Assembly (NCBI GenBank): GCA_003978765.1 | Contig: QNYO01000062.1 | Location: forward strand, 1 to 32,926 | Origin: Hydrogenimonas sp. | GTDB lineage: Bacteria > Campylobacterota > Campylobacteria > Campylobacterales > Hydrogenimonadaceae | DNA length: 32,926 nt | Reading direction: 5' to 3' | Shown: positions 4,487-32,559 of the stretch, one piece after another | Layout of the letters: each line of letters begins with the position of its first letter | Position numbering within the stretch: the first letter of the stretch is position 1 | Made by a program: the position numbers and the translations under genes | Notes under the pieces: model-generated | Told to the model about the DNA's origin: nothing | The model's input: only the letters and a program-made list of their open reading frames with translations | Databases searched by the model: none

Positions 4487-5385
4487 CATCTCCTCCTATT
4501 ATTTAAAAGATCTTTCAAACTCTCCATTGGGTCTTTACCCTCTAAAATAGCATAGACCTCATTGGCAATGGGCAAATAGATATCATTGGTTTTAGAGATG
4601 GTATGGAGGGCTTTGGCAGTACCCACCCCTTCAGCCACCTCTCCAAGCTCTTGAAGAATCTCATCAAGCGTTTTTCCCTCGGCAAGCCCCAAACCGACAC
4701 GGAAGTTTCTTGAGAGTTTACTACTCGCTGTTAAAAAGAGATCGCCTGCACCACTAAGGGATAAAAAGGTCTCCTCTTTGGCACCAAACTCACGCCCCAA
4801 ACGTGCCATCTCAACAAGCCCACGCGAAATGAGGCTTGCCCGTGCATTCTCACCAAGCTTTAATCCCTCACAAATGCCCCCTGCAATGGCAATGACATTT
4901 TTGTAAGCACCACCAATTTCAGCCCCAATCACATCGGTACTCACATAGGTCTTGATAAAGTTGGGAAAGAGTTCACTCCATGCTGTCGCAGCCAGACGGT
5001 TATGGCTATTAAGGACCAGAGCTGTTGGTAAGCCTGCCATCACCTCTTTGGCAAATGAAGGACCACTCAAATAGGTCAAATGGCTACTGGGTACAAATGT
5101 TTCATAAATCTCATTCAAAAAAGCACCCGTATCAGCCTCAATCCCTTTGGAAGCAACAAGGATATTATGATCTTTAAAACTGTAGTGTTGAGAGAGCCAT
5201 GCACGTATCGATTGGGCGGGAATTGTCATCACAACATTCTCCACCTCTAGTGCCTCATCAAGTGAGACAAAGCCAGGAATATCACGCTCTCTTCTTGATG
5301 TAATCACCACTTCACACTTTTGACGCAAAGCAAAGGCGAGTGCCTGCCCCCACTTTCCTGCTCCAATCACTGCAATCTTCTTCAC
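4486..5385 (-). CDS. gpsA: Glycerol-3-phosphate dehydrogenase [NAD(P)+]
   Basis: Makes sn-glycerol-3-phosphate from dihydroxyacetone phosphate for phospholipid synthesis; soluble enzyme. The N-terminal Rossmann motif is IGAGKWGQALAFAL (about 7-20). YLSGPSFAKEV and the catalytic-domain segment GGAYKNVIAIAGGICEGLKLG (catalytic Lys within) are standard for GpsA, as is ENARASLISRGLVEM. The length of 299 residues is slightly short but complete. The start is GTG, with AAGGAG 8 bases upstream; no ATG in frame fits. Downstream proA is coupled through overlapping stop and start. I remember gpsA next to gatB in C. jejuni too, where the two ion-channel genes found here are absent. Confidence 0.96.
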   Translation of the reverse strand: MKKIAVIGAGKWGQALAFALRQKCEVVITSRRERDIPGFVSLDEALEVENVVMTIPAQSIRAWLSQHYSFKDHNILVASKGIEADTGAFLNEIYETFVPSSHLTYLSGPSFAKEVMAGLPTALVLNSHNRLAATAWSELFPNFIKTYVSTDVIGAEIGGAYKNVIAIAGGICEGLKLGENARASLISRGLVEMARLGREFGAKEETFLSLSGAGDLFLTASSKLSRNFRVGLGLAEGKTLDEILQELGEVAEGVGTAKALHTISKTNDIYLPIANEVYAILEGKDPMESLKDLLNNRRR

Positions 5386-5399
5386 TCTCTCATCTCCTT

Positions 5400-6161
5400 T
5401 TACTCAGGCAGTGGTTCATCACCACTCAATAACCGATAAAAGCGTTCAAGGGCTTGACGTTCTCCCAATAAGACCAACACATCCCCTGCATCAAACTTAT
5501 GGTTAATCCCTCGTGAAACAAAGATAAAGTCATCACCCAACTCTTTATCGGTAATACCAATCAGCACCAACCCATAAGCTCTAAAATCGACCTCATTGAC
5601 ATACTTATCTTCAAGAAATGAGTTGGGTGGAATCTCTATCTCTTCAATCCGAATATGGTTATCGGCATAAATAATCTCATCAAGCACCTTTGTCACAGCG
5701 GGTCGGGTAATAATATCGACAATTCTATTGGCACTCGACTCATAGAGATCAATCACCTTGTCTGCTCCGATAAATTTGAGTTTCCGACTGCTTTCGGCCG
5801 AGGTTGAAACTGAAATAATCGTTGAATCCGTTGTGATACTTTTGAGTGACAAGACCAAAAAGATGTTGTGTGAGATATCATCCATTGCACAAAAGAGAAT
5901 TTTATGATCAATTCCCAACTCTCTTAGGGCGGTATCATCAATCAGATCGATATGATAGGCTGTCACAATACCATCCTCTTTGGCTCGTTGAATCGCCTCT
6001 TCATCACTATCGGCTACATAGATCTTGGAAAAGTTGGATGAGAGGATCTCATAAATACGATGGCCTAAAGTACCATAGCCAAAAAGGATAATATCACGTG
6101 ACTCTTGCTTTGAACCGAACACTTTGTTCCAACCTTCCCTTAAAATCTGCAATACTGACAC
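5400..6161 (-). CDS. Stand-alone RCK (TrkA-N/TrkA-C) potassium-regulatory protein
   Basis: Soluble protein of up to 253 residues. The TrkA-N Rossmann domain has FGYGTLGHRIYE (about 27-38) and a beta-2 acidic stretch VADSDEEAI; the region about 165-250 matches a TrkA-C domain. No membrane segment is seen. It follows an ion channel that carries its own RCK domain and overlaps its end. Such proteins bind nucleotides or ions and gate K+ channels, so it may join or modulate the gating ring of the neighbour (inference). The longest start is GTG at 6161 (68-base overlap) without a clear Shine-Dalgarno; GTG at 6122, preceded by AAGGGAAGG, would cut the overlap to 29 bases and keep the whole Rossmann domain. 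Confidence 0.85.
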   Translation of the reverse strand: MSVLQILREGWNKVFGSKQESRDIILFGYGTLGHRIYEILSSNFSKIYVADSDEEAIQRAKEDGIVTAYHIDLIDDTALRELGIDHKILFCAMDDISHNIFLVLSLKSITTDSTIISVSTSAESSRKLKFIGADKVIDLYESSANRIVDIITRPAVTKVLDEIIYADNHIRIEEIEIPPNSFLEDKYVNEVDFRAYGLVLIGITDKELGDDFIFVSRGINHKFDAGDVLVLLGERQALERFYRLLSGDEPLPE

Positions 6162-7689: not shown

Positions 7690-9116
7690 GAGTTTAGACG
7701 CTCTTTAAGCAGTTGGTTGACTTTACCAGGGTTGGCAGAGCCTTTAGAGGCTTTCATCACTTGCCCAACAAAGAAACCAAAGAGTTTCTCTTTTCCACCC
7801 TTATACTCTTCAACCTTATCTTGATTGTTTGCCAAGACTTCATCAATGAGTGCCAAAATTGCACTATCATCACTCACCTGTTTCAGTCCAAGCTTTTCAA
7901 TCGTCTCATCCACATCGGCACCGACATTTTCAAAGAGATAGTCAAGTACCTCTTTACCTGCCTTACCGCTAATGGTACTCTCTTCGATACGTTTTACAAT
8001 CAGAGCAAGCTGTTTGGCTGTGACAGGTGAGGTTTCAACCGTCATACCCCCTTTGAGTCGTCCTTGCAATTCGATCGTGAGCCACTTCGCCGCCTCTTTC
8101 GGATTGGCACCCTCTTCAATCATCTCTTCAAAGAATTGTGCCATCTCAACCTCTGCGGTGATAACGGTGGCATCATATTCACGAATCCCAAACTCTTTGA
8201 CATAGCGCGCACGCTTGGCATCTGGCATTTCAGGGATATTTTTTGTCTCTTCGATCATCGCATCGTCAAGAATGACAGGGAGCAGATCGGGTTCAGGAAA
8301 GTAGCGATAGTCAGCACTATCCTCTTTACCACGCATTGAACGGGTCTCACCTTTAACGGTATCAAAGAGACGTGTCTCTTGCCACACCTCTTCATCATAA
8401 ACACCATCTTCCCACGCCTCAATTTGGCGTTGTACTTCATAATCAATCGCTTGATGAATAAAGCGGAAGCTGTTCATATTCTTAATCTCTACACGGGTGT
8501 AGAGTTTATCATCTCCCTTTGGACGGATCGAAACATTAACGTCACAACGGAAAGACCCCTCTTGCATGTTGGCATCACTAATACCAAGATAGCGAACAAT
8601 CGCATGCAACTTTTTAAGATAGCGTACCGCTTCATCGGCACTTCGCATATCTGGTTCACTTACAATTTCAAGCAGAGGTGTACCTGCACGGTTCAAGTCA
8701 ACAAGTGACTGGTTGCCTTCATGCATATTTTTTCCCGCATCCTCTTCAAGGTGGGCACGGGTAATTCCGATACGTTTTTGTGTTCCATCATCGAAATCGA
8801 TCATCAAATGACCGTTTTCAACAATAGGAATCTCAAACTGGCTGATCTGATACCCTTTTGGAAGGTCTGGATAGAAGTAGTTTTTACGATTAAAGACAGA
8901 CTTTTTATGAACCGTCGCCTCAATCGCATGACCAAACATCATCGCCTTTTTGACCGCCTCTTTATTCAAAACAGGAAGCGCACCAGGCAGACCGAGACAT
9001 ACTGGACAGGTATGTGTATTCTGTCTGTCGGCAAAACTGGTCGCACAATTACAGAAGATTTTCGTTTTGGTGTTGAGCTGAACGTGGACTTCAAGCCCGA
9101 TAATCACTTCAAACAT
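7686..9116 (-). CDS. gatB: Aspartyl/glutamyl-tRNA(Asn/Gln) amidotransferase subunit B
   Basis: GatB is the kinase/tRNA-binding subunit of GatCAB, which converts misacylated Glu-tRNA(Gln) or Asp-tRNA(Asn) to the amide. The start [22 protein letters not shown] is diagnostic. Zinc-ligand cysteines are seen at C22, C24, C37 and C40. The 'cradle' and the C-terminal YqeY-like helical domain (ending [13 protein letters not shown]) complete a normal 476-residue protein. AAGGAA lies 9 bases before the ATG. gatA and gatC are not in the window; scattered gat genes are usual in this phylum. Confidence 0.98.
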
Positions 9117-9147
9117 ATTGGGAAGTTCCTTGAAAATGGTTTTAGTT

Positions 9148-9714
9148 TTATTCTACAAAATAACGTATCGACGCGAAACCGTCGGCTCCGGCGTTTTTGA
9201 CAGCTTCAATCTGATCATCTGTCACAATACCGCCAAGTGCAAAGAGTTTGATAGATATTTTATCTTTAATTTCTTTTAACTTCTCTAAACCGACAGGTGC
9301 CCCTTTTCCGGGTGTTGCAAAAATAGGACTAAAGGTTATGGCATCGGCACCATAACGCTCTGCCAATAACGCTTCATCAAGTGTATGGGTACTTACAATG
9401 GTCCATAAACCAAAGGATTTGGCATCACCAATTTCATGAAGGGCATTTGAGGGAAGATGAACACCATCCGCACCCAATCTTTTGGCTAAAGCACTATCGG
9501 TATGTAGTAGAAACTTAATCTCTGGATAGAGGGGTTTAAGCGAAAGAAAGCTCTTTGCTAAGGTTGCATAATCTGCTGTCTCTTTATCTCTTAAGACCAC
9601 CATATCAATCGGTTGAGAGCTCAACACTTGATAGAGGGTATGTTTGAGATAGGCAGGCTCTGAAGTGTAGTACTTCGGATCAGTGATCGCGTAACGTAGC
9701 ATCATGAGAGGCAT
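9148..9714 (-). CDS. ThiE/TenI-superfamily protein (thiamine phosphate synthase or thiazole tautomerase)
   Basis: A TIM-barrel of about 188 residues. Superfamily marks: [11 protein letters not shown] near the start, [19 protein letters not shown] (strand 2 with an R-x-K), [34 protein letters not shown], and the phosphate-binding ALGGI near the end. ThiE joins the pyrimidine diphosphate to thiazole phosphate. However, the usual NDR motif is LLHTD here and the HLGQ motif is HLPS, as I remember for TenI, so either assignment is possible. The longest frame starts at GTG 9747, but homology starts at MLRYAITD; ATGs at 9714, 9705 and 9702 all fit, and none has a clear Shine-Dalgarno. The start overlaps the upstream gene by 23-35 bases. 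No other thi gene is nearby. Confidence 0.8.
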
Positions 9715-9970
9715 TGAGTGATGCTTGGATCGATTCAAGAATCTCACGTTGGCGTTTTAGCTCTCTAAGCTTTTCAAACTGCAAAGATGCTACTTCCAAC
9801 ATGACGACCAAAAATAGACCGAAAAGTGAACCGATCATGCCAGCCATAAGGGCAACAATAAGACCAAAAGGGAGAAATGACCAGAAAAGGAAGATGGCAC
9901 CGAGCAGGGCCAAAGCCCATGCGGCACCAAGAAGAAAGCTGATAATTGTCTCAGCAAATCTCTGTTTCAA
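9680..9970 (-). CDS. Small two-helix membrane protein of unknown function
   Basis: Not recognised. The chosen frame gives 96 residues: two adjacent hydrophobic helices (FLLGAAWALALLGAIFLFW and the Gly/Leu-rich stretch after FGLIVALMAG), then a charged, coiled-coil-like tail (QFEKLRELKRQREIL). The longest frame starts at TTG 10024 inside atpB, with no ribosome site. TTG at 9970 lies 16 bases after the atpB stop and is preceded by GGAG at 6 bases, so it is the better start. Its position directly after ATP synthase subunit a recalls AtpI/AtpZ-like accessory proteins, but there is no sequence proof for that. Confidence 0.72.
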   Translation of the reverse strand: MKQRFAETIISFLLGAAWALALLGAIFLFWSFLPFGLIVALMAGMIGSLFGLFLVVMLEVASLQFEKLRELKRQREILESIQASLNASHDATLRDH

Positions 9971-9986
9971 AGAGAACTCCGCAAAA

Positions 9987-10667
9987 TTAGAGAGCCTCTT
10001 CTTCCAAGAGAACAGCTCCAGCAAGATAGACGTATGTCAAAATCATAAAGATGAATGCCTGCAAAATTGCAGAGAATGAGAGAAGTAAGAATGCTGGAAG
10101 TGGCACGATCCATGGTGCAAGCATAAGAAGAACCCAAAGGAAAAGATCGTCACCCTTGATGTTACCGAAAAGACGGAAAGAGAGAGAAATGATACGTGAA
10201 ATATGAGAGACGATCTCAATTGGGAACATCAATGGTGCAAGCCACTTAACTGGTCCCATGAAGTGTGCAAAGTAGTGAACAACACCATGTCTTCGGATAC
10301 CTTCAAAGTTGTAGTAGATGAAGACAATCAACGCCAATGTAAGCGTCATGTTGATGTTGCCTGTTGGAGACTCGAAACCTGGGATGATACCAAGAACGTT
10401 TGCGATAAAGACGATAATTCCGATGGTTGCAACAAGCGGAAGATACTTTCTCGCATTGGTTTCACCAATAACGTCGCGTCCCATTGCAACAACGCCTTGA
10501 AGATACGCTTCCATAATGTTTTGCGCACCAGTTGGAACAAGTCGGAGTGACTTTGTTGCCATTTTTGCAAGCAGTAGAGCCAATACAGCTGTCAAAAGTA
10601 CATGGGTCGTAAATACGAACGCATGTGAGTGGTTGATGGCTCCAAAAAAGGTAAATACACCTTCCAT
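9987..10667 (-). CDS. atpB: F1Fo ATP synthase subunit a
   Basis: Membrane stator subunit that forms the proton half-channels facing the c-ring. The 226 residues are almost wholly hydrophobic. The essential arginine is R165 in [15 protein letters not shown], and the last helices ([27 protein letters not shown]) carry the partly conserved Gln203. AAGGA lies 6 bases before the ATG. No other atp gene is here: atpB is separate from the atpFHAGDC cluster, as is common in Campylobacterota. It is the first gene of a run down to 2672 with gaps of at most about 31 bases and many overlaps. Confidence 0.98.
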
Positions 10668-10695
10668 TCGGCTTCCTTTGATCTGAATTTGTGCG

Positions 10696-10704
10696 ATTTT
10701 AGCA
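10696..10704 (-). promoter_or_regulatory. Extended -10 promoter candidate for atpB
   Basis: Minus-strand TGCTAAAAT is an extended -10 (TGn plus TAAAAT) ending 28 bases before the atpB ATG. A start near 10689 leaves a 20-odd base leader containing the AAGGA ribosome site. No clear -35 box was found. The 69-base gap to the upstream TIGR02757 gene is the only real space before the long atpB-to-ABC run, which supports a promoter here. Confidence 0.5.
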
Positions 10705-10736
10705 TAATCTCCATTAATCAGGCTTTAACAGAGTGC

Positions 10737-11498
10737 TTATATCACGCTTTTCTCTTGCCCAATACGATAAAGTGCAAAGTCATATTTGACAGGATCATCA
10801 GGAGAGAAAACTTTCAATCGCTCGGTCAACTCCACAGCCGCTTTCCAGTCATAAGTTTTACGCTCTAAAAGACCCAATTGACGGCTTACATGAAAGGTAT
10901 GGGTATCGAGTGGAATGATAAGATCGGCAGGTGAAACCTCCTGCCATCGCCCTAAGTCTAGGGCATCGTGACGCACCATCCAGCGTAAAAACATCATCCA
11001 GCGTTTATAAGGACTGGTTGGTCGTCCATTTTTGGGCAGTGAACCGATCAAAAAACGGTATCCCCTACTCTCATAATGGTTAACCTGCTCAAATCTCTGA
11101 ATCAGAGCAAAAACACCCTCAATGACTTGACCAGACTTTTGGTAAGCTTCAACAAACCTCTCCTTCAACTCCCCCTCTTCCAAACGACGCAGGGTTACAA
11201 AGATTTGAAAGAGATCTTCTGAAGATTGAAAGCGGTAGTAAAAAGGTGCCAATGCCTCTTTTAAAACTGCTTCATCACAATTGAGAAGCGAAAAGTCCAA
11301 CTTTTTAAGAAACTTAACAATGGCATTGGCGTTCCCATAACCAAAAAGGGCACAGAGTAAAATGGCACGATCATCCTCTAAATCTTTTGCCACTTGCAGA
11401 GGATCAGCACCCCCATTCAGAAGTTCAGAGGGATCATTACGCTTTTTAACCTCTGCTTCAAGCCTCTCACGCAAGCTTATAGAAGCGTTTTCGCTCAC
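10737..11498 (-). CDS. TIGR02757 family protein (DUF2400)
   Basis: Matches the conserved bacterial family TIGR02757 in its C-terminal half: LPKNGRPTSPYKRWMMFLRW, then MVRHDALDLGRW, then IPLDTHTFHVSRQLGL, and finally SPDDPVKYDFALYRIG. The family is distantly related to HhH-GPD DNA glycosylases, and its biochemical role is unknown. The longest frame begins at TTG 11510. GTG at 11498, four codons later, has GGAGG exactly 5 bases upstream, giving 253 residues (MSENASISLRERL...). It overlaps the end of rpoN by 32 bases, so it is probably co-transcribed with it. Confidence 0.85.
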   Translation of the reverse strand: MSENASISLRERLEAEVKKRNDPSELLNGGADPLQVAKDLEDDRAILLCALFGYGNANAIVKFLKKLDFSLLNCDEAVLKEALAPFYYRFQSSEDLFQIFVTLRRLEEGELKERFVEAYQKSGQVIEGVFALIQRFEQVNHYESRGYRFLIGSLPKNGRPTSPYKRWMMFLRWMVRHDALDLGRWQEVSPADLIIPLDTHTFHVSRQLGLLERKTYDWKAAVELTERLKVFSPDDPVKYDFALYRIGQEKSVI

Positions 11499-27431: not shown

Positions 27432-27453
27432 TATAATAGAGAAGTCTATTATA
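27432..27453. promoter_or_regulatory. 9-bp inverted repeat with a TATAAT box before the DUF2018 gene
   Basis: On the minus strand TATAATAGA, loop CTTC, TCTATTATA pair perfectly. The repeat covers the GGDEF-EAL stop codon and lies 22 bases before the DUF2018 ATG. Its first arm contains a consensus -10 (TATAAT), so it may be the promoter of the haem/quinone cluster, with the palindrome as an operator or as an RNA hairpin at the 5' end. A terminator for the operon upstream is the alternative; the U tract is poor. Confidence 0.45.
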
Positions 27454-29398
27454 CCACCGTTTGCTTAGAAGAGATTCTCTCTATCGGTTTAGGTTCATCA
27501 ATATAATATCCTTGAACAATATCGACACCAAGTTTTTCAACAGTCTCAAAAATGACATCATTACTGACAAACTCAGCAACTGTCTTAACACCCAACTTTT
27601 TGGCAAATGAGATAATGGTCTCCACAACAATTTGGGTATTTTTATCGGTATGGATATTTTTGATAAGTGAACCATCAATCTTAATATAGTCAACTTTCAA
27701 GTTGACAAGATAAGAGAAGTTTGAATACCCTGTCCCAAAATCATCAATAGCAATCTGACATCCAAGCTCCTTCATCTCTGCCACAAAGGCTTCAGCCTCT
27801 GGATAGAGCTCAATATTCTCACTCTCCAAAAGTTCAAAAACTACACGGTCAACCACATGATAGTGGGTAATTCTATCCTTAATAAAGGCTACTGTCTCAC
27901 TATTTAAAATATCTTCAACAGAGAGGTTGATCGAAAATGTCAAATCTTTTTTATCAGCAAAGAATGCACAACTCTGCTCCACGATCAAACGTGTAATCGT
28001 TGGATAGTAGTGGGTCTTTTGTGCAAGTGAAAGGAAGTAGTAAGGAGATACCACAGTCCCATCACGCTTAATCAAACGCACAAGCATCTCATACCCTTTA
28101 ATCCGCTTTCTTTTTAAATCGTAAAGCGGTTGGGCATAGGTATGAATACGACCTTCTGAGAGTGCACTTTTGATCTCACTTCCCCAATGAATATTATCAC
28201 GGAAATTCTTCTCAAGATGCCACTCTTCTGAAAAGAGCATTAATGGTTTTCTCGCTTTTTTTGCCATCTTATAGGCCATATCGGCTTGAATAATGGTTGG
28301 TGGTTGCTCAATCGTTGCTCCGATAGTCACATGCAAATCGATTGGTGTATCTTCATAGTAGAATTTCTGATTCTCGATCGATTCACGAATCTCTTTCATC
28401 AACTTCAAAGCACTATCAACCTGATAGGTTCCCTTTTTAAGAATAACATACTCATCACCTGAGGTTCGATAGACCTTATCAAAATCCATCAACTTCAACT
28501 TTTGTGCAAACTGTTGAAGAATCTGATCACCCGCTTTATGACCATAGAGATCGTTAATTTCAGTAAAACCATCAATATTGATAATTGCAAGAAGTGCACA
28601 ATCGATATGGACCAAATCCTCAATCAATGCCTTACGATTGGGTAAACCTGTCAAGGAGTCGGTATGCAACTGTTTCCATAACTCCGCTGTCTTCTCATTG
28701 ACCCGTTCAGAGAGAAGTTGATTCATATTTTTTTGAAAATTCATATGGGCTTGAATATTCTCTTGCATCTTCTGAATCGCCTGTTCAATCTGCTTAATCT
28801 CCCGATCACGACTTTGGCTCTCAAAGACAACAGGCTTCTTGACATCATACTCTGCCAAAAGGTGGGCAAGTTTTTTGAGTGGAACCAGACGCTTTTGAAT
28901 CAGATAGACCAACCCCAAGTAGAGTAACGCAAGAATAGAGAGAAAGATGATCAAAATATGGGTCAACTCTTTGGACATCTGCTGATAGTGCAAACTTGAG
29001 TAGTAGAGTTCAAGTACCGCAATCCTTTTTGTACCATCTGGTTCAAAGACAGGAACTTCAACACGAAAGATATCGGTATCATCACTCTCTTGATCTTTTT
29101 CAAGCTGACTAATGACCCGACCATCCTTCTTTAAAAAGACAGAGATAATATCTTTTTGTGTCATAATTTGACGTAAAATTTCATCAAGTCGATCATCCAA
29201 TCCAAGATAGAGATTAAGTCCAATTTGAGGTGCAAAAGTCGTTGCAATCAGCTCTGCCTTCTCCTTCTCAATATCAAAGAGGATCTTCTTTCCAATATTG
29301 CCAAAGACAAAAAAGATCGAAAGAAAGACAAAAAGACCACCCATGACAACATAAATAGTCAGTGTTGATGAGAGAGATTTATCAGTCCGTCCCAACAT
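27449..29398 (-). CDS. Membrane GGDEF-EAL c-di-GMP enzyme
   Basis: A 649-residue protein: TM helix (about 12-34), periplasmic sensor of about 110 residues, TM helix (about 146-168), HAMP-like linker and coiled coil (to about 243), GGDEF (about 244-395), EAL (about 400-640). The GGDEF motif is SGDEY (313-317), a variant with the catalytic acids kept; the inhibitory RxxD site upstream reads MDFD, so its arginine is lost. The EAL motif reads EML (E437), and the other phosphodiesterase residues are all present: N491, E522, DD 552-553, K573, E609, Q629. So c-di-GMP hydrolysis is well supported and synthesis possible. ATG 29398 (AAGG 7 bases upstream) was preferred over TTG 29404. It overlaps the YfiR-like gene, its probable periplasmic partner. 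Confidence 0.93.
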   Translation of the reverse strand: MLGRTDKSLSSTLTIYVVMGGLFVFLSIFFVFGNIGKKILFDIEKEKAELIATTFAPQIGLNLYLGLDDRLDEILRQIMTQKDIISVFLKKDGRVISQLEKDQESDDTDIFRVEVPVFEPDGTKRIAVLELYYSSLHYQQMSKELTHILIIFLSILALLYLGLVYLIQKRLVPLKKLAHLLAEYDVKKPVVFESQSRDREIKQIEQAIQKMQENIQAHMNFQKNMNQLLSERVNEKTAELWKQLHTDSLTGLPNRKALIEDLVHIDCALLAIINIDGFTEINDLYGHKAGDQILQQFAQKLKLMDFDKVYRTSGDEYVILKKGTYQVDSALKLMKEIRESIENQKFYYEDTPIDLHVTIGATIEQPPTIIQADMAYKMAKKARKPLMLFSEEWHLEKNFRDNIHWGSEIKSALSEGRIHTYAQPLYDLKRKRIKGYEMLVRLIKRDGTVVSPYYFLSLAQKTHYYPTITRLIVEQSCAFFADKKDLTFSINLSVEDILNSETVAFIKDRITHYHVVDRVVFELLESENIELYPEAEAFVAEMKELGCQIAIDDFGTGYSNFSYLVNLKVDYIKIDGSLIKNIHTDKNTQIVVETIISFAKKLGVKTVAEFVSNDVIFETVEKLGVDIVQGYYIDEPKPIERISSKQTVV

Positions 29399-29924
29399 TA
29401 ACAAACCTTGCTATACTATATAAAACAGTATTGAATCTTGGACTATATGAGAGAGCACTTCGATTGAGATAGATCACTGTTGATCGTTCAATCGTCAATG
29501 CTAAAAGTGCCCCATACTTTAAATCATTTAAATCGTAAACAAAAATTGGAATATGCTTTTCCCGTCCAATAGCAACGGCAGATTTTAGATGCTCTGCATC
29601 CGCTTTTAAGAGATAGAGAGCATCTATCTTCATTGATGGATTCAGTGCTGTAAATGGTATCGTTTGGACATCTAAATGGAAAACCCCTATCTGATGACCA
29701 TGGTAGTGTTCAATTTTTTGAACAATTTGATGGGCAATCTCTTCATCTTCAGCCATATGAACAACACCTAATGTAATACTGTCTCCTTCTTTTTGCTTGG
29801 TAAGCCCCTCTTGTAAAATAATTAATTTTGGATAAATTCTGCTCTGTGCATCAATAAGTAGATCGTTATAGCTATATCCAAACACTACATCAAGACAAAG
29901 CAGAATCACCAAAAATATACGCAT
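29382..29924 (-). CDS. YfiR-like (DUF4154) periplasmic protein
   Basis: A 180-residue exported protein; signal peptide about 1-16 (MRIFLVILLCLDVVFG). The mature part has alternating strands and helices (ITLGVVHMAEDEEIAHQIV, later IDALYLLKAD) and ends with STVIYLNRSALSYSPRF and TVLYSIARFVN, which follows the DUF4154 ending (a strand, then LN.SA......LL..A..V). In Pseudomonas, YfiR binds the periplasmic domain of the diguanylate cyclase YfiN and inhibits it. Here it sits between a TonB receptor and a membrane GGDEF-EAL protein with a periplasmic domain, which fits the same job. Similarity is moderate by eye. AAGG is 7 bases before the ATG, which overlaps the receptor stop by one base (TAATG). 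Confidence 0.72.
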   Translation of the reverse strand: MRIFLVILLCLDVVFGYSYNDLLIDAQSRIYPKLIILQEGLTKQKEGDSITLGVVHMAEDEEIAHQIVQKIEHYHGHQIGVFHLDVQTIPFTALNPSMKIDALYLLKADAEHLKSAVAIGREKHIPIFVYDLNDLKYGALLALTIERSTVIYLNRSALSYSPRFNTVLYSIARFVNVGTD

Positions 29925-31981
29925 TAGAAGACCTTTGTCAATGTGACCATAACGCTACGTCCCTCTTGTGGAAAGTCATTATCGTAGTTATATGGTGATG
30001 AGGGATATTTGACATCCGCATCAAAAATATTCTTAATGGAGAGACGTAATGACAACTTTTTAGGTGTTTGGTACCCCAATGTCATATCAAGGGTTGCATA
30101 AGCATCAAGTGATTCTCTACTATCATATGCTGCCCGCTCTTTGCTTCCAACATATTTACCAATTAAGGCATAATCGATCGATTCATTAAATTGATGGCGA
30201 TAAAAACCTTTCAACATATGGGTTGCACTATTCGATAGTGGTTCATCTTGATTCTCCTGACCATCAACATAGGAGTAGTTGGCATAGAGTGTATCATGTA
30301 GCCCAATAGGAAGTTTCAACTCACACTCAAAACCGTAAATATCTGATTCTGAACTATTCTGATAAATGTGGTCGCTATTAATATTATCGATTTGATCACT
30401 ATTTTGTAGATAGAAGGCGTTGAGTTGGAAAAATGCATCAACACTCCATTTACGAATATATGCCAATTCAAAGGCATGCACGACTTCTGGATTGAGTTCT
30501 GGATTCCCTACACGTGCTCGGTTATTAATGGTAAAGAGCTCTTGCCATGATGGTGATCGACTAGAACGGCTATAGATCGCTTTATAGATATTCTTTCGAT
30601 CTTTCTGATAGACAATTGAGAATCTGGGGTTCACTTGTGTAGAGATATTTGAAACACGCTCCATATTGACCCCAAATTGGAAAGAGAGCTCTCTATTATA
30701 CTGGTATCTATCTTGTAAAAAGAGGCGGTAGGTATGCTGTTTGGCATTGGGATCGGTAAATGGATAACTCTCTGAATAGTCAGTTATACCAACACCTGTC
30801 ACTCTATCAGTTGTTTTGGTAACCACCTCATAGGTTTCAATATAATCAATATAGTATCCAATATTAAATGTATGGTGTTCAATACCAGAATATTTTGCAT
30901 AAGATGTTTGATAGACTTTTCTAAGTTTTGCAACATGTTCACCATAAAAACCATCTGGATAGATAACCTCTGCTAATGTTCCATCTGGTAAAGGGACACG
31001 AGCAATAAAACCTTCTGGTAATAGCATAGCTGAACTTTTAAAGGCACTCTCTTTAATACCCGCTTTGATAAAGGTTTGCCATTCACCAATTTGAGGGTGA
31101 TAGCTAAGTTCAGCATAAGAGATAGGAAACTTGGCATGATCATCTTCATTGGGAAGTGCCCCATTGATTCCATAGGCACTCCCTCGCTCATTATAGGTTG
31201 TTCGAAAACGGAAAGTTACTTCATGATAATCTAGTTGCAAGCCCAAAGCATAATTTCGCATCCAAAGTGGTGCTTCTCCCTCCTTAGCCAGAGGAGTATT
31301 GTCTTGGCCTAAAAGACCCGTAGCAAGGATATCGGGACCAGCAGGAAGATACTTATCATCTTTTTGGTAGTAGAAATCTGTAAAGATTGATAGATCACCA
31401 TCTTTATAAGCTTTCGTAAAACCTCCCATCAGATAGTTATATGAACCAACTTTTGCCACCAAACGATCTGCTGAAAGTTCATTATCAATCGTATGTTCTC
31501 CATAAGTGATAATATGGATAGAGCCTGCATAAGCATTGTAACCATCACTAATACTACCTGGTCCTCGTGTTACCTCAATGCGTTTAATCATCTCGATCGG
31601 CATAGCAAGAAAGGATCCATAACTATCAAAGAAGAGATCATTGACCTCAACACCATCAACAAAGAGCTTACTCTGTCCATAAGCATAAGGGTTGGAACCT
31701 CTAAAGACTGCCCGCTTATTATCCATATTATCGGTTGCGATGTCAACACCCGGAACAAGTTCTAAAGCCTCTTGTAGGTTAGATACACCTATACGCTCCA
31801 AATCTTTTCCTAAAAAGACAGTCACAATATAGGGTTGATAGGGCTCATTCATCTTCACCGACTCTGCAATGGCTTCCACTTTTTTCATCTCAGTAACAAT
31901 CTCTTGCATCCAATGCGATGAGTTGTCAGAAGCAATCAGTGGTAAACCACATAAAAATAGTGTAAAAACAGTCTTTTTCAC
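29924..31981 (-). CDS. TonB-dependent outer-membrane receptor
   Basis: A 685-residue receptor. Signal peptide MKKTVFTLFLCGLPLIAS; plug domain about 45-165 (VTVFLGKDLERIGVSNLQEALELVPGV in homologous order, then VEVTRGPGSISDGYNAYAG); then a beta-barrel rich in aromatic strands, ending in VTLTKVF with the C-terminal Phe used by the BAM machine. Ligand unknown: nothing marks it as a siderophore or B12 receptor, and neither TonB nor an ABC importer is next to it. The longest frame starts at TTG 32002; GTG 31981 gives a 4-base GTGA overlap with the upstream gene, a classical signal peptide, and GGGAG 10 bases upstream, so it was chosen. Confidence 0.92.
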   Translation of the reverse strand: MKKTVFTLFLCGLPLIASDNSSHWMQEIVTEMKKVEAIAESVKMNEPYQPYIVTVFLGKDLERIGVSNLQEALELVPGVDIATDNMDNKRAVFRGSNPYAYGQSKLFVDGVEVNDLFFDSYGSFLAMPIEMIKRIEVTRGPGSISDGYNAYAGSIHIITYGEHTIDNELSADRLVAKVGSYNYLMGGFTKAYKDGDLSIFTDFYYQKDDKYLPAGPDILATGLLGQDNTPLAKEGEAPLWMRNYALGLQLDYHEVTFRFRTTYNERGSAYGINGALPNEDDHAKFPISYAELSYHPQIGEWQTFIKAGIKESAFKSSAMLLPEGFIARVPLPDGTLAEVIYPDGFYGEHVAKLRKVYQTSYAKYSGIEHHTFNIGYYIDYIETYEVVTKTTDRVTGVGITDYSESYPFTDPNAKQHTYRLFLQDRYQYNRELSFQFGVNMERVSNISTQVNPRFSIVYQKDRKNIYKAIYSRSSRSPSWQELFTINNRARVGNPELNPEVVHAFELAYIRKWSVDAFFQLNAFYLQNSDQIDNINSDHIYQNSSESDIYGFECELKLPIGLHDTLYANYSYVDGQENQDEPLSNSATHMLKGFYRHQFNESIDYALIGKYVGSKERAAYDSRESLDAYATLDMTLGYQTPKKLSLRLSIKNIFDADVKYPSSPYNYDNDFPQEGRSVMVTLTKVF

Positions 31982-32559
31982 AATCTTTTTACTCCCTTGC
32001 AAAGTTCACGATTTGCCGCTATCAACTTCTCTGTACTCAAAAGAACAGGAAAGCGTTCTTTACCAGCATACACTATACTTTTCCCAATAATCTCATAGGG
32101 GTACCCATATTTATGAAGTAACGAGTAAAAACGACTTTCTAAAGCACCAAGTGTATAGTCTAAACCAAGCTCTACCATTTTATGGCATAAACATATTTTC
32201 ACTAAAGTAAAAATCTCTCGGCTTGTTTTTAAGTTCCGATACTCTTTTTGAATAAATATGCGTGACATCTCTCCAACTCTATCACGTTCAATATTAAGCT
32301 GTTGAAGATCCAGTTTAAATACATTCTCTGTAGGATACCCTATTGGTGAATGATGAATAAGACGAATACATGCCACAAGTTCATCATGTTGACCTAAAAT
32401 TGCAAATTGGACACTATATTGGTCATACTCATCATACTCCATCCCATCAGGATAATCCTCTTTTTGATAAACTCCCAACTCTTCACAAGCTATAAAATAA
32501 CGAAATCGATAGATTCTTTCTAATAAGTCAGGATCGTGTACCTCAACTATCCTAAACAT
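31978..32559 (-). CDS. GNAT/LuxI-fold acyltransferase, PEP-CTERM/exosortase-associated type
   Basis: A 193-residue protein with the pattern of TIGR03694-like acyltransferases, relatives of LuxI acyl-homoserine-lactone synthases and N-acyl amino acid synthases: RFRYFIACEELG (R20), EDYPDGMEYDEYDQYSVQF (E41, D43, D46), CIRLIHHSP (R66), then GEMSRIFI (E97, R100). These follow the conserved R...E.D..D...R...E..R set of the LuxI fold. Such enzymes move a fatty acyl group from acyl-ACP to an amino-acid-like acceptor. No exosortase or PEP-CTERM gene is in view. AAGGG is 6 bases before the ATG. First gene of a coupled operon with receptor, YfiR-like and GGDEF-EAL genes. Confidence 0.82.
   Translation of the reverse strand: MFRIVEVHDPDLLERIYRFRYFIACEELGVYQKEDYPDGMEYDEYDQYSVQFAILGQHDELVACIRLIHHSPIGYPTENVFKLDLQQLNIERDRVGEMSRIFIQKEYRNLKTSREIFTLVKICLCHKMVELGLDYTLGALESRFYSLLHKYGYPYEIIGKSIVYAGKERFPVLLSTEKLIAANRELCKGVKRL

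Follow-up and report, generated by a model that had tools for sequence, protein, structure and literature searches.

The window, by which we mean the whole 32,926-nucleotide stretch of DNA that was analyzed, corresponds to contig C10 in a Hydrogenimonas-like genome that is 80% complete and belongs to a one-genus family. On one strand it carries four consecutive genes encoding a predicted N-acyltransferase (AT), a TonB-dependent receptor, a YfiR-like periplasmic protein, and a membrane GGDEF-EAL protein (Table 1). The stop codon of the AT gene overlaps the start codon of the receptor gene by 4 bases (GTGA), the receptor and YfiR-like genes share 1 base (TAATG), and the YfiR-like and GGDEF-EAL genes share 17 bases; the location of the genes agrees with a preliminary description of the locus, which had reported exactly the same three overlaps. 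The longest open reading frame of the receptor begins at a TTG codon, from position 32002. An RND pump gene lies upstream of the four genes, across a gap of 97 bases, and a DUF2018 gene lies 17 bases downstream. Since these two neighbors recur only inside the genus, we took the unit to consist of the four genes. A promoter scan was no richer than shuffled sequences. Elsewhere in the window, two adjoining minus-strand open reading frames (476 and 257 amino acids, positions 347 to 2550) had no Pfam match at an E value of 1e-5.

Table 1. Genes of the four-gene unit, listed in the order of transcription, with window coordinates
Feature	Position	Strand	Start codon	Basis
Predicted LuxI/FeeM-fold N-acyltransferase (AT), 193 amino acids	31978-32559	minus		Pfam, AlphaFold/AF2 model, residue counts, hydropathy
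TonB-dependent receptor (plug and barrel)	29924-31981	minus	GTG	Pfam, NCBIfam
YfiR-like periplasmic protein, 180 amino acids	29382-29924	minus		Fold search, alignment, hydropathy, cysteine positions
Membrane GGDEF-EAL protein	27449-29398	minus	ATG	Pfam, hydropathy, EAL residues

The AT scored above the Pfam cutoffs of Acetyltransf_5 (PF13444), FeeM (PF21926; 41.8 bits against a cutoff of 27), and Autoind_synth (PF00765; 31.1 bits against 24). The top structural matches of its AF2 model (pLDDT 94.9) were TofI, BjaI, LasI, and FeeM (2g0b), with the acyltransferase domain of nocardichelin siderophore biosynthesis also among the neighbors, and hydropathy indicated neither a signal peptide nor a membrane segment. 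The residue set singled out in the preliminary description (R20, E41, D43, D46, R66, E97, and R100) proved to be conserved in essentially all of 43 AT homologs: R20, D43, D46, E97, and R100, along with S99 and R108, were invariant where present, and E41 and R66 were near-invariant. Judged by these profiles and the model, the AT has a LuxI/FeeM fold; its product may be an N-acyl amino acid.

The receptor matched the TonB plug and barrel domains above the Pfam cutoffs, and these alone; no N-terminal STN domain, as used in FecA-type signaling, was detected by Pfam. Receptor homologs with a metal as established ligand had been named beforehand as a contrary outcome; the nearest solved relatives, all of them distant, are CirA and BtuB, receptors of siderophore and B12 transport. 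The third protein has a signal peptide, within which lies its sole cysteine (C10). In Pfam searches, the window protein had no match of its own, including to the YfiR/HmsC-like family PF13689, which was matched by one of nine homologs (E value of 0.007). Its profile likewise retrieved nothing meaningful from the PDB by sequence, where the fold search succeeded: in Foldseek, the AlphaFold model (pLDDT 88.8) matched the YfiR structures 5eb1, 4yn7, and 4xjy, among others, with E values of 5e-6 and weaker and a TM score of about 0.7 by target. YfiR entries made up most of the top 20 matches, and small Rhodothermus substrate-binding proteins matched as well. A different fold had been named as the outcome that would speak against the YfiR-like identity first proposed for this protein; the structural match is to YfiR.

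In the fourth protein, GGDEF and EAL domains both exceeded the Pfam cutoffs and were the only domains matched, with no PAS domain detected. By hydropathy, two hydrophobic segments flank a periplasmic domain of about 100 amino acids; the N-terminal region gave weak profile matches only. The EAL domain is intact, its catalytic residues (E, N, E, D, D, K, E, and Q) being invariant in 36 of 36 homologs. The GGDEF signature is mostly degenerate: among the same homologs it reads SGDEF in 25, SGDEY or SADEY in 4 (SGDEY in the window), and GGDEF in 4, and the GGDEF domain contains no RxxD I-site. Given the invariant EAL residues and the prevalence of SGDEF, the output is likely to be c-di-GMP breakdown, and these motifs suggest that the protein most likely acts as a c-di-GMP phosphodiesterase. 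The identities originally assigned to the four proteins were thus borne out by Pfam for the AT, the receptor, and the GGDEF-EAL protein and by fold for the YfiR-like protein. Two homologous loci depart from the usual arrangement at this gene. In L111 (genome G086), the GGDEF-EAL gene (8211-10160) is split into two frames, by a frameshift or a sequencing error, and the other three genes are intact. In L122 (G201), the GGDEF-EAL gene (9170-11128) lies upstream of the AT, receptor, and YfiR-like genes and points away from them; the AT and receptor of this genome have diverged further than any others in the set.

The four genes are conserved as a unit. The preliminary description had proposed co-occurrence across Campylobacterota genomes as a check, with absence of the AT from most homologous loci as the contrary outcome. 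In a genome scan seeded with the receptor only, so that the count was blind to the AT, 26 loci were retrieved, belonging to Hydrogenimonas, Sulfurimonas, and Nitratiruptor, and the AT was directly upstream of the receptor in 23 of them, the exceptions being L147, L148, and L152. With all seeds pooled, the AT was present at 36 of 42 informative nonredundant loci (no two receptors more than 95% identical), a count biased by the AT and YfiR seeds; in all absence counts, incompleteness of metagenome-assembled genomes (MAGs) may hide genes. Carriers are mostly sulfur-oxidizing Campylobacterota and fall into three families: f1 is that of Hydrogenimonas, and f16 and f18 are presumably those of Sulfurimonas and Nitratiruptor, respectively, as judged from shared neighborhoods and trees. 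The flanks of the unit differ among these genera, with the RND pump in Hydrogenimonas and several other neighborhoods in Sulfurimonas- and Nitratiruptor-type genomes, and the linkage is therefore not a by-product of frozen synteny. The coupling of AT and receptor is far above chance.

At the level of the phylum, 18 of 298 sampled genomes had a strong AT match (E value below 1e-30), and 16 of these 18 also had a close YfiR-like match (E value of at most about 2e-28), such matches being found in about 20 of the 298 genomes. As a control, 20 loci of more distant YfiR-like matches were inspected. These were mostly receptor-YfiR-GGDEF sets, and none contained an AT, in keeping with the earlier statement that such sets occur elsewhere. 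Pairwise tree-distance correlations among the four proteins ranged from 0.81 to 0.90 (r, 28 complete loci), values that in part mirror the common descent of the organisms. A second, distantly related receptor-YfiR-like-GGDEF/EAL set without an AT is present in the genome of the window itself (L157, contig C20, 3658-8607; proteins of 689, 184, and 794 amino acids). In addition, one bacterial four-gene unit was found on a contig filed under an Archaeoglobaceae MAG (L132, JALWBF010000049.1), which is almost certainly a mis-binned Hydrogenimonas contig.

Departures from the unit occurred in both directions. Six receptor loci were without an intact adjacent AT. In one of them (L116; genome G277, family f16), the AT gene has decayed (5374-5586), leaving one 70-codon open piece and further stops, with intact receptor, YfiR-like, and GGDEF-EAL genes downstream. 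In L123 and L152, the AT is absent and the receptor, YfiR-like, and EAL genes are kept; in L127, the AT of the genome is located elsewhere (L128); and L125 and L148 are without both the AT and the EAL gene. At a further locus, L124, the YfiR-like and EAL genes are kept and neither receptor nor AT is present. Given the six receptor loci, the receptor can act on another ligand or on a signal made by others. Receptor-only genomes fit the role of listeners and equally fit a receptor with another ligand.

Conversely, some ATs occur alone. A separate clade of solo ATs, located mostly downstream of a helicase-like gene, was found in five Hydrogenimonas genomes (L025, L028, L030, L031, and L033). Four of these five genomes (G004, G008, G009, and G016) had no close receptor, and two of the four, G008 and G016, contained nothing that matched the receptor profile at an E value of 1e-20. 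A solo AT in another genome (L129, 63-1786; G318) directly adjoins an flhB-like flagellar gene, and no such receptor is present in that genome. Since these ATs occur without this receptor, the AT product has some role independent of it; for the Hydrogenimonas clade, a second product or role is possible. The solo ATs are the strongest counterevidence to a simple ligand-receptor pair.

The likeliest function of the unit, to which we give about an even chance, is that an N-acyl product of the AT is sensed via the receptor and the YfiR-like protein and controls the phosphodiesterase; the link between this ligand and the receptor is what we infer. The cytoplasmic AT would couple a fatty acyl chain with an amino compound; the probable product is an N-acyl amino acid or something chemically close to it. 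N-acyl tyrosines, the stieleriacines, are known to alter biofilm formation (PMC7293339). The product would leave the cell, and the TonB-dependent receptor would bind it, or a complex of it, and carry it across the outer membrane. In the periplasm, the YfiR-like protein may bind the product or sense the receptor. In Pseudomonas aeruginosa, YfiR, which acts on a membrane GGDEF enzyme, binds small molecules in a pocket that its partner also uses (PMC4887326). Here, the YfiR-like protein would grip the GGDEF-EAL protein more or less tightly, through a presumed contact with the periplasmic domain of the latter, and phosphodiesterase activity would rise or fall in turn. The resulting change in c-di-GMP would lead to a switch between attached and swimming life. 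More tentatively, and with somewhat less than an even chance, the unit may serve cell-to-cell acyl signaling without a LuxR-type receptor, comprising a LuxI/FeeM-fold synthase, TonB-powered uptake, a c-di-GMP phosphodiesterase, and a YfiR-like protein that relays the signal to it; genomes with the receptor but no AT would then be listeners.

As the chief alternative, the unit may sense a nutrient and have a lipid enzyme attached to it. The receptor would import an outside nutrient such as a metal chelate or cobalamin, the YfiR-like protein and the EAL enzyme would report it, and the AT would make an aminolipid for the membrane or matrix, either OlsB-like or an N-acyl amino acid, which would be part of the output; alternatively, the AT would simply be co-expressed. 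We consider this explanation less likely. It is consistent with CirA and BtuB as the nearest solved receptors, with the weak profile similarity of half of the ATs to ornithine N-acyltransferases, with the generic receptor-YfiR-GGDEF sets that have no AT, and with the existence of solo ATs. However, a 19-mer Fur-box consensus had no good match upstream of the operon in 33 loci, where shorter Fur-type palindromes were only mildly above shuffled sequences, and the reading of the receptor as a siderophore receptor is therefore weakly disfavored. Moreover, nothing would oblige an output enzyme to remain linked to a single receptor clade, as the AT does at 23 of 26 loci, in differing gene contexts.

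Considerably less probable is that the AT product is not a density signal but an amphiphilic metallophore or scavenger that returns metal via the receptor, with the YfiR-like protein and the EAL enzyme sensing its return. The receptor class and TonB dependence suit a chelate, and the nocardichelin domain among the structural neighbors of the AT points the same way. Yet the four-gene unit contains no further siderophore biosynthesis genes and its flanks vary, there is no clear Fur box, and N-acyl amino acids by themselves chelate metals only weakly.

Classical quorum sensing, in which the AT would synthesize an acyl-homoserine lactone (AHL) for a LuxR-type receptor, is very improbable and was rejected, despite the Autoind_synth score and the fold matches to LasI, TofI, and BjaI. 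The SAM-pocket tryptophan of LuxI (W34/W35), which profile alignment to LasI maps to AT position 30, is a tryptophan in 2 of 43 ATs, and the LuxR autoinducer-binding domain (PF03472) was found in none of 40 genomes (that of the window and 39 relatives). Because the tryptophan is not conserved and no LuxR domain is present, the AT is not part of a classical AHL system; the profile of the exosortase-associated acyltransferase also gives it a higher score. A plasmid search with the AT returned only weak Rhizobium matches, of which the annotated ones are AHL synthases, and one inspected match adjoins a LuxR gene. Assignment of the AT to a PEP-CTERM/exosortase system is the least credible alternative and was likewise rejected: the exosortase-associated family TIGR03694 is the best NCBIfam match of the AT in all 16 members scanned, but its score (83.9 bits) is below the cutoff of 111.95, exosortases were found in 2 of 40 genomes, with none in that of the window, which is 80% complete, and the conserved linkage is to the receptor.

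If sensing of the AT product is the function of the unit, it would connect an acyl compound made by the cell itself with c-di-GMP by way of the outer membrane. To our knowledge, sets of a receptor, a YfiR-like protein, and a GGDEF enzyme or kinase are common, but few of their ligands have been identified. A lineage where such a set is tied to a dedicated small-molecule synthase offers a way to find such a ligand, through the product of a single enzyme. Cell-to-cell signaling of this kind would also give an acyl-signal system to the sulfur-oxidizing Campylobacterota, bacteria important at vents and redoxclines. In the literature searched, the sole signal considered for Campylobacterota of these habitats is AI-2 (luxS; PMC5364579).

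Among known systems, YfiBNR of Pseudomonas and Escherichia coli resembles the unit in placing a small periplasmic YfiR-fold protein beside a GGDEF enzyme of the inner membrane that carries a periplasmic domain. However, its outer-membrane partner is the OmpA-like lipoprotein YfiB rather than a TonB-dependent receptor, and the unit described here has an intact EAL domain in the enzyme and an added acyltransferase. P. aeruginosa YfiR also has two disulfide pairs (PMC4887326), whereas the mature YfiR-like protein has no cysteine. The NCBI-curated trio of TOL_0244, TOL_0243, and a YfiR-associated kinase (NF053590, NF053591, and NF053592) shares the combination of TonB-dependent receptor, YfiR-like protein, and membrane signaling enzyme. 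Here, in contrast, the window receptor scored 94.6 bits against a cutoff of 645, NF053591 had no match in this genome, and the output is a GGDEF-EAL protein rather than a kinase; the trio names include no acyltransferase. FeeM and the exosortase-associated N-acyl amino acid synthases share the fold of the AT, which exceeds the FeeM profile cutoff, but most carriers of the unit lack an exosortase, and the conserved partner is the receptor set.

In the NspS/MbaA system, the ligand is a polyamine, and we know of no outer-membrane receptor or ligand synthase in that set. Like the YfiR-like protein as proposed here, NspS is a periplasmic binding protein that controls its partner, a membrane GGDEF-EAL enzyme (PMC8967002, PMC8079147). 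RpfF/RpfR, the BDSF system of Burkholderia and Cronobacter, likewise places an acyl-signal synthase gene beside that of a GGDEF-EAL protein, and the acyl signal triggers the phosphodiesterase activity of this receptor (PMC6361424). RpfF is, however, a crotonase-type enzyme that makes a free fatty acid from acyl-ACP, as opposed to the GNAT-fold synthase here, and RpfR senses in the cytoplasm through a PAS domain, whereas sensing by the present unit would cross the outer membrane and the periplasm. The receptor-YfiR-sensor trio is thus already curated by NCBI in kinase form, and LuxI/FeeM-fold synthases are well known. We found no description of the four-gene unit in the literature searched, which left most subscription journals outside; joined in one operon, these elements may constitute a self-made chemical signaling circuit of a design not described before.
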